From: Anaerolineae bacterium
GTDB lineage: Bacteria > Chloroflexota > Anaerolineae > Anaerolineales > E44-bin32
Assembly: GCA_011192015.1 (NCBI GenBank)
Contig: DUET01000011.1
Coordinates: 1 to 64,000 of the forward strand
Direction of reading: 5' to 3'
Length of the DNA stretch: 64,000 nt
Made by a program: the position numbers and the translations under genes. The notes under the pieces were generated by a model, which was not told the origin of the DNA, did no database searches, and saw nothing but the letters and a program-made list of their open reading frames with translations. Every line of letters begins with the position of its first letter. Within the stretch, counting starts at the first letter, position 1. Shown here piece after piece: positions 703-37,211 of this stretch.

Positions 703-1202
703 CGAATCACCTCCATGGAAAAAACTCCCCATCGAATGACATGTTCAGCAAAAGCAGTATGTAAATTTAGTTCTTGAAAACGGAATGAAGGATATCCCAT
801 CCGAATGATAAATGTTTCTCAAAGCCCCATGTACATGATATCAATACCCCTATTGGATGATATGTGAAGAGATTGCATATACCGGTAAGGAAAATAACTA
901 CAACCGTTGGAATCCAGCAGCATATAATTAATACAACTGGGTTTCGGTTGTGTCAACCAGTGCTATCTCAACCGAGCATATATTCATCCCCCTTTTGCGA
1001 ATACTCTAAGTTAGTTAATACATATTTGAGAGGAAATCCATTATATATCCTCAAAATCTATACTGCAACACCAAGTTAATGCAGAGAGTTTCTTCATGCG
1101 GATGGACCGTCTATGACAAGTCGGCAACGTCTCCGATGTTTCCTTCCTTCTGAAGAAAATCTCAGATGCTGTATTAAATAGTCTGGAGTTATTCATAAGC
1201 GA

Positions 1203-1288
1203 AGGCGCCCTCTCGGGCGCCTTTAGGTAGCGGGGTTTGGATTCCCTGGCCTGACCGGTCAGGGCAGGCGAACCAAGGACCTTCAGGT
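1203..1288 (-). pseudogene. tRNA-Met 3'-half remnant plus terminator hairpin, interrupted in the T-loop by a 25-nt insert (attachment-site-like)
   Basis: 1203-1244 and 1270-1288 align to 4031-4072 and 4073-4091 (terminator hairpin plus 3' half of the intact tRNA) with about 4 mismatches over 61 nt. 1245-1269 (cctggcctgaccggtcagggcaggc) is an extra near-perfect palindrome. Confidence 0.75.
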
Positions 1289-1480
1289 ACTGAGCTTCGT
1301 CCCTGAAAAAGTTAGCTCGGAACGTCAGCCGAGGCATTTGAGCCTACCTTGCAGTTTGAGGTTCCTTTGGATCCGACGAGATGGGATCCTAGGGAGTATA
1401 GGATCACTTCAGAAATGACGCAAATGCTAGGGACAGTATCTGTCCAGCAGCCTACTGATTAAGAATTATCAGCAGAAGTG

Positions 1481-2274: not shown

Positions 2275-3588
2275 CTAATTGCCAACGAATTCAATGCGTG
2301 TGATCACGATCTGCGTGAGGTTCCAATCCGGGATGCCTGCCATCAAGCTTCCCCAGATGCGAACCCGTGTTCCCGTGTCCCGCAGAGACACGATCTGGGG
2401 CTCAAGCTCGGGATTTCCACTCGGTCCGAAGGCTGTGATTCCGTACTGGATGGGGTAATCACCTTCGAGAAGGAAGTAGTCATCGCCACCCGATCCGGGT
2501 TCGGTTCTGCCGGTGACGATGGTGCCTTCCCAGCCCTCGACTGGATCCGGGTCGAAGAAGGGACCGGGGCCGCTCACACGCATGCGTGTGACTCGAAGCT
2601 CACAGCCTCCGTAATCCAGCGCCGGGCAGATCAGCTTGCCCCAGAAATTGGCGTAGCTGTTAGCCTCTAACCCATCGCGTAGAGCAACGATCTGCTGCTC
2701 GATGGTTTCCGTTTCACCTTCGATGCCGATTTCGACGATGCCATCCGGATTGACGGAGAGGTAATCATCATGCTGGCTTCCAACGGGGAGCTTGATGACT
2801 TGCCCATACCAGGCAAATGCAGTCTCATCCGTCTCCACTGCCGGAGGTTCATCAATCAATTCGATGCGCGTGACCTCGATCTGCGTGCCGTTCCAATCCG
2901 GGATGCCTGCGACCAAACTGCCCCAAATGCGGACCTTGGTTCCCGTATCCCGCAGGGATTCGATCTGAGGTTGAAGCTCGCGCTCGCCGCTCGTGCCAAT
3001 GGCAGCCACGTTGCCGTACTGAATGGGGAATTCCCCATCGAGCTGGAAGTAATCATCGCCGCCCGATCCCGGTTCGGTTCTTCCTGTGAAGAAGGTGCCT
3101 TCCCAGCCCTCGACGGCTTCAGGTGCAGAGAGAGCACCAAGTTCATGGCGCTGAACACGGGTGACGCGAAGCTGGCACTCACCATAATCAAGCACCGGGC
3201 AGGTAACGGTGCCCCAGAAGTGAGCATTGCGGCTTGATTCCGGTTGATCCCGTAAAGCGACGATCTGATCCTCAATGGCCGCCGTTTCTCCCTCGATCCC
3301 GATCTGAACCATGCCGTCAGGATGGACAAAGAGCAGATCATCGTATTGGTTACCGGGAAGACCGATCACATACCCGTACCATGCGTAGGCCATCTCTACA
3401 ATGCCACCCCCAGCAGCTGGAGGTTCTGTCTCCACCGGTTCAACCTCATCGGTGGGAGGCATTTCGGTTTCGGTAGGAACTTCAGGGGCTAGCGTTGGTG
3501 TGTCGGTTGCACCGCATCCTGCGAGTGCAACGGTGCTCAAGACGAGAATAAACACGCCCAACAATGCTAGTGTTTTATCTAACATCAT
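2275..3588 (-). CDS. repeat-containing lipoprotein of unknown function
   Basis: Start trimmed to MMLDKTLALLGVFILVLSTVALAGCG (lipobox) after an AAGGAG site. Tandem units share ..G.DDYF..DG...I.G....I..QI..LRD......WG.L......L.VTR. Confidence 0.75.
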   Translation of the reverse strand: MMLDKTLALLGVFILVLSTVALAGCGATDTPTLAPEVPTETEMPPTDEVEPVETEPPAAGGGIVEMAYAWYGYVIGLPGNQYDDLLFVHPDGMVQIGIEGETAAIEDQIVALRDQPESSRNAHFWGTVTCPVLDYGECQLRVTRVQRHELGALSAPEAVEGWEGTFFTGRTEPGSGGDDYFQLDGEFPIQYGNVAAIGTSGERELQPQIESLRDTGTKVRIWGSLVAGIPDWNGTQIEVTRIELIDEPPAVETDETAFAWYGQVIKLPVGSQHDDYLSVNPDGIVEIGIEGETETIEQQIVALRDGLEANSYANFWGKLICPALDYGGCELRVTRMRVSGPGPFFDPDPVEGWEGTIVTGRTEPGSGGDDYFLLEGDYPIQYGITAFGPSGNPELEPQIVSLRDTGTRVRIWGSLMAGIPDWNLTQIVITRIEFVGN

Positions 3589-3892: not shown

Positions 3893-4030
3893 AGTCGATA
3901 TCATTTGCATAATGATTCTTCTAGAGTCCAGGCTAATATCCAAGCGGTCCTAGGTTTCCTTCCTATATAAGGGGGGCTCAATAAGGAAGAACGCCGTTAA
4001 AACCACTCTCAGAGGGCATTTTAAGGGCTA

Positions 4031-4050
4031 AGGCGCCCTCTCGGGCGCCT
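4031..4050 (-). terminator. hairpin immediately 3' of tRNA-Met
   Basis: AGGCGCCC-GAGA-GGGCGCCT on the minus strand; identical hairpin at 1203-1222. Confidence 0.55.
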
Positions 4051-4055
4051 TCAGG

Positions 4056-4127
4056 TAGCGGGGCTAGGATTCGAACCTAGGACCTTCAGGTTATGAGCCT
4101 GACGAGCTGCCACTGCTCCACCCCGCA
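4056..4127 (-). tRNA. tRNA-Met(CAU), initiator-like
   Basis: TGCGGGGTGGAGCAGTGGCAGCTCGTCAGGCTCATAACCTGAAGGTCCTAGGTTCGAATCCTAGCCCCGCTA; full cloverleaf, CAT anticodon, unpaired 1:72 (T:T) as in initiators. Only two of the three usual G:C anticodon-stem pairs are present. Confidence 0.9.
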
Positions 4128-36882: not shown

Positions 36883-37024
36883 CAAACCTCCTGGTATACG
36901 ATCGTTGCAGCCATGCCCGACAATTCCCGCCCTCCGAAAGAAAACGCCCCTTTCGTGTCGACAAGGGTCGTAGGAGTCCTTTGAGGCCGCTCCCACCCCC
37001 CTTCCTCGAGGTTGGTGGTAGCGC

Positions 37025-37150
37025 AATTCGGGCGGGCGACCTGGCTCTTCGCGTGAGCGAATTACAGTTGCGGGACAGCGCCGGACTTCAACCGGCTTCG
37101 CCGTTCGGCCCTCCCTTCCGAGGGATAGGGCACCCGAGCTGCACGATATG
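37025..37150 (-). promoter_or_regulatory. cobalamin riboswitch
   Basis: Minus strand: CTCGGGTGCCCTATCCCTCGGAAGGGAGGGCCGAACGGCGAAGCCGGTTGAAGTCCGGCGCTGTCCCGCAACTGTAATTCGC..GAGCCAGGTCGCCCGCC; matches the AGGGAA-type / GGTtgAAgTCCGGcGCtGtCCCGCaACTGTaA / GAGCCAGG..CGCC consensus. Confidence 0.92.
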
Positions 37151-37211
37151 CTTTTGTCGAAATGATTGTACTACAAGACCCTATCGACGCAACAAGACCG
37201 GCCCCACACGA

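Follow-up and report, generated by a model that had tools for sequence, protein, structure and literature searches.

What brought a short, almost perfect palindrome into the T-loop of a broken tRNA gene, and does its position there reflect a preference or chance? The question arises from a 64,000-nucleotide stretch of DNA from an Anaerolineae bacterium (hereafter the window; positions 1 to 64,000 of contig DUET01000011.1, GenBank assembly GCA_011192015.1). We conclude that the palindrome is very probably a mobile repeat that was precisely inserted. The locus as a whole is probably best explained by a REP-like mobile unit of 25 nt that was moved in trans and for which the T-arms of tRNA-Met remnants serve as targets.

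The tRNA-Met remnant and its insert

The remnant is located on the minus strand at 1226-1308 (inner end approximate) and runs from the 3' end of a tRNA-Met gene to the anticodon loop, with 1269-1295 corresponding to tRNA positions 30-56. A terminator-like hairpin (about 1203-1223, minus strand; present in the predicted fold) accompanied the 3' half of the tRNA when it was copied and is the same as that at about 4030-4050, where 4027-4072 is similar at 91%. An intact tRNA-Met(CAT) gene at 4054-4127, also on the minus strand, provides an uninterrupted homologue. Between the remnant and the intact gene the window carries a gene for a Chagasin-family (I42) peptidase inhibitor (1799-2236); other features of the window are one ORF without a Pfam match that has an internal duplication (2288-2814 versus 2858-3384, 72% identity), and a Cobalamin riboswitch on the minus strand at 37014-37152. 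Both in the window and on contig 29 of the same genome (G000), parts of the 3' region of tRNA-Met and the terminator recur with single ORFs in between, an arrangement that might be a cassette array.

The remnant is split by CCTGGCCTGACCGGTCAGGGCAGG at 1245-1268, a 24-nt palindrome that is perfect except for a single G/G pair (positions 5 and 20), which bears out the near-perfect 24-bp palindrome of the original prediction. Relative to the intact copy the insert is 25 nt, i.e., the palindrome plus one C (1245-1269, plus strand), and is positioned between ATTC and GAACC, which in the tRNA sense is the T-loop site C56^G57; since a C is present at both flanks the boundary is ambiguous by 1 nt. When the insert is removed, 66 nt match the intact tRNA-Met of the window without gaps at 90.9% identity, and the insertion in the T-loop is clean, as had been proposed. 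The accompanying claim that both flanks align to the intact tRNA holds for the alignment itself, but the remnant comprises the 3' half only and the 5' half is missing.

Remnants of the 3' half of tRNA-Met (here 1226-1308) are also found in several other genomes of the family (L016, L020, L025, L026 and L027). Five tRNA-Met remnants have a clean start at tRNA position 31 in the anticodon loop, the pattern expected, judged from sequence, of an integration event there. No integrase was recognised beside the remnants among the ORFs listed at ten loci, with five translations inspected by eye. The displaced tRNA fragments described for Islander (PMC4383910) and for the Dehalococcoides ssrA islands (PMC3146451) account for the 3'-half remnant; such tRNA-integrated islands leave the 25-nt insert unexplained. 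A hairpin of another kind, 29 nt long (CACCGCACCGTAGCCGGTGCGGCACGGTG and variants), interrupts some tRNA-Met remnants in their anticodon loop, at CA^T of the anticodon (L011, L249 and L014).

A dispersed family and its target sites

The palindrome is a member of a family, CCTGGCCTNNCCNGNCAGGNCAGGC, that is dispersed through genomes of Anaerolineales and some other Chloroflexota, with one full copy in its own genome. A search of this genome (2.95 Mb) with the palindrome pattern and up to three mismatches returned one place, matched on both strands, and a looser pattern gave a second, longer variant at position 981 of contig 29. The 14-nt core with up to three mismatches matches the window 8 times versus 3.84 expected, a number reached in 5 of 100 shuffles; such degenerate matches come close to what chance yields, and we count the exact copy alone. 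The longer unit-like palindrome on contig 29 (981-1021) adjoins sequence related to window positions 1280-1408.

Similar palindromes are present in genomes of the same family. Copies were counted in 11 chosen genomes, where some matches represent one near-palindromic copy counted on both strands. With up to two mismatches, an Anaerolineales MAG (G480) has 59 matches, at least three of which are the same copy on the other strand, leaving about 56 copies; the numbers for G485, G484 and G451 are 18, 18 and 17, respectively. The reversed pattern used as control gave no match in ten of the 11 genomes and one in G004. An exact scan of genome contigs identified 19 stretches, all in records named Anaerolineales, Anaerolineae, Anaerolineaceae, Chloroflexus or Chloroflexi, and 4 of 396 genomes in a sample of the class match with at most one mismatch. 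The pattern TCCCTN{8,38}GGNCAGGCG was too loose, being near the control level in many genomes, but did reveal related units (on contig C142 of G005, and in G013). Window positions 1195-1420 had no match in the phage collection, and the exact unit after YY was not found in IMG/VR. In the literature searched, which covered few subscription papers, we found no report of the unit itself or of REPs in tRNA T-loops.

The site analyses rest on 113 distinct sites with flanking DNA, not on every match. At 111 of these the base at -1 is a C, and the three bases preceding the unit are CTC (54), TTC (33) or CAC (18) in 105 cases, to be compared with a background use of 1.65%, 1.88% and 1.35%, respectively. 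Because the unit itself ends in C, the cut may fall on either side of the shared C, and the dinucleotide preceding this C is CT, TT or CA. Removal of the 25 nt mends the reading frames of two transposase genes, one IS110-type and one IstB-like (gene names from translations). An automatic rule found an uninterrupted homologue among the loci examined for 41 of the 113 empty sites; five of these are spurious (L195-L198 and L205, which pair with another unit copy or a similar repeat), leaving at most 36. Neither loss of target sequence nor a duplication beyond possibly one C was apparent from the frames and empty sites. The unit has fixed ends and inserts precisely after CTC, TTC or CAC.

Several observations concern small repeats at the target. 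Ten of the 19 exact units reside within other small repeats, at GATTGCTTC^G or a variant thereof, in a common inverted-repeat element GTCATTGCGAG..GAAGCAATC..CTCGCAATGACA (L079, L080, L083, L085, L087, L089-L091, L094 and L095). The longest uninterrupted stem at the junction averages 3.03 pairs versus 2.46 (sd 0.11) in 200 draws matched for the flanking bases, and stems of at least five pairs occur at 12.4% of the sites versus 4.2% in the matched draws; after similar sites were collapsed to 68 the mean stem is 3.31 and 19.1% have at least five pairs. Testing for hairpin targets by folding revealed no difference in spanning pairs (6.31 versus 6.44, p 0.57). We regard a preference for short inverted repeats as targets as likely, though not certain. 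In G004 and G015 seven units (L044-L048, L216 and L217) are located in a recurrent sequence ending GCCGTTAGGC, which resembles one end of an integron attC. An R'' box is present upstream in just one of the six examinable sites, the seventh being too close to a contig end, and we do not claim attC as a target.

Target preference or coincidence in the T-loop

To the original prediction, wide occurrence of the palindrome at random sites meant that its T-loop position was coincidental. Most of the 113 sites are indeed non-tRNA, and they follow the target rule rather than being random. The T-loop motif TTC^GA satisfies this rule, and the position in the window therefore fits the preference. The suggestion that copies might be found in the T-loops of tRNAs or tRNA fragments proved fruitful in part: a fuzzy pattern run over the loci examined identified 13 distinct tRNA-Met remnants, seven of which have an insert exactly at C56^G57 (the window, L010, L011, L249, L013, L250 and L015), while most unit sites are elsewhere. 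Five of the remaining remnants are uninterrupted and one (L295) has a disrupted T-arm in which the point of interruption is not clear; none of the four distinct intact genes identified has an insert. The share of seven in 13 is biased, because similarity to the window, itself the carrier of one insert, led to these loci; moreover, a single event may underlie the two or three copies in G018, and likewise those in G025/G026. A stronger point for repeated use of the T-loop is that the seven inserts represent four different sequences, in both orientations. Clear members of the family are the window's insert and that of G078 (L015), which nearly equals the G005 unit on C142; those of G018 and of G025/G026 share only the end GGACAGGC or GGGACTGGC.

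It is rather unlikely that the T-loop position is plain coincidence, with a mobile repeat inserting at any CTC, TTC or CAC. A tRNA match spanning the junction (E≤0.05) exists for just six of the 113 empty sites, compared to 93 of 6000 background sites. Three of these six lie elsewhere in tRNAs than the T-loop and are weak, at 12 to 15 bases; the T-arm matches are the window (8.8e-16, the starting case) and the second and first copies at L014 (6.3e-5 and 0.033). Taken alone, these sites suggest a modest excess. Against coincidence, the same tRNA-Met position holds four different inserts, and the T-loop position may accordingly be more than coincidence.

Selection for an extended T-arm in a transcribed tRNA-like RNA, or for a terminator or processing hairpin, appears improbable. 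The remnant strand together with the terminator is predicted to form a stable fold (-68 kcal/mol, z -2.69), and the inserts in seven remnants share one site. However, the four insert sequences differ and occur in both orientations, five remnants lack an insert, the unit is common outside tRNA, and loss of the tRNA 5' half removed the gene start as well. Still less probable is a scar of tyrosine-integrase recombination, in which the T-loop would have served an element as attB and the 25 nt would be what it left behind. T-loops do serve integrases, e.g. that of mycobacteriophage Ms6 (PMC1762012), and the remnant is itself of the island-integration kind, given that five remnants have clean starts, but transposase genes and other non-tRNA sites hold the unit with identical ends, so that it is not restricted to a tRNA or att site. 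An assembly or binning artefact can practically be dismissed, because the unit and its ends recur in many independent assemblies, even if the source is a draft genome (108 contigs, 90% complete). Target preference, and not a tRNA-specific function, best explains the T-loop position; the insert implies no tRNA function and is not a tRNA innovation.

Relation to REPs and a possible route of movement

The unit is a variant of the REP-like mobile palindromes and differs from known REPs in its tags. T. roseum, in which some REPs have been described, belongs to the Chloroflexota. In Di Nocera et al. 2013 (PMC3733652), the GTAG and CGTC super-families are presented as dispersed palindromes of 20-40 nt, some intragenic and some inside small palindromes (T. 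roseum); the CGTC class is described there as having no dedicated transposase, which raises the question how REPs without a linked transposase move. As in that account, the unit is a short dispersed palindrome, partly intragenic and partly within small repeats, and with 25 nt and tens of copies in relatives (one copy and one variant in its own genome) it agrees with the general description of a REP as a repeated palindrome of 20-40 nt. In contrast to the two super-families as outlined there, its ends have neither tag, its target is CTC, TTC or CAC, and no copy was found near a Y1 gene in the 30 loci examined. No listed unit begins or ends with GTAG on either strand, one variant (the second copy at L014) having an internal GTAG. 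Compared by eye with the description in PMC3733652, i.e., a CGTC, TGTC or CCTC tag, an 8-9 bp stem starting from A/T pairs and a CCA tail, the units differ from CGTC REPs in that their stems start with G/C pairs. Nor does the unit resemble the usual inverted-repeat MITEs with a target-site duplication of at least two bases, since at most one C is duplicated. The Rickettsia palindromic elements (RPE) are small palindromes, many of them longer than the unit, that insert in genes and elsewhere. RPE and the unit are thus both small inserting palindromes, with RPE having a different tag. RPE-6 and RPE-4 are given as equivalent to CGTC-1 and CGTC-4 in PMC3733652.

With its 25 nt the unit has no coding capacity and must therefore move in trans. 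We propose that it would be non-autonomous and that a strand-transferase, most likely an HUH/Y1 enzyme (IS200/TnpA-REP type), would move it in single-stranded form; an HUH/Y1 step is quite possible, and we put it forward tentatively. Such a mover would cut after a dinucleotide (CT, TT or CA ahead of the shared C) and prefer small inverted repeats, and the tRNA T-arm (CTAGGATTCGAACCTAG) would offer both a TTC^G site and a short hairpin. Non-functional tRNA-Met T-arms, unprotected by selection, would consequently collect inserts. Most copies can fold into a hairpin with a free CCTG on the 5' side; by unit type, several show the free 5' tetranucleotide, with other folds for the window copy and the CCTGGACTG type. 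TnpA-REP enzymes are reported, in PMC8266576, to cleave at CT or CA and to use a single-stranded hairpin with a tetranucleotide on its 5' side. Precise joining behind a short motif, with no duplication, is likewise reminiscent of REPs and their TnpA enzymes. The hairpin and the CT and CA dinucleotides of the unit are consistent with TnpA cleavage of the kind described there, but the unit has CCTG instead of GTAG, TT is also used, and a linked gene is lacking. Unlike RAYT-mobilised REPs, which flank a Y1 transposase gene, no unit with up to four mismatches was found near Y1_Tnp genes in the 30 loci examined of 48 Y1_Tnp matches, and G000, G004 and G015, which hold the unit (drafts about 90% complete), gave no Y1_Tnp match. 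The mover is inferred, and it may have been lost from the genome of the window. More speculatively, and with some doubt on our part, the unit could stand for a separate class of minimal mobile DNA, hairpins of 25 nt that carry CCTG as a 5' tag, enter short inverted repeats behind YT^C or CA^C, are moved by a single-strand transferase as yet linked to no REP family, and have T-arms as natural hot spots.

The sequence of this family is very short, its boundaries are as sharp as those of a mobile element, and its target rule is clear; some MAGs carry near-identical copies by the dozen, and empty sites are known. With such copies and empty sites, the movement of REPs without a linked transposase becomes testable, and our data suggest that remnants of tRNA genes, free of selection, record the landing preferences of such units.
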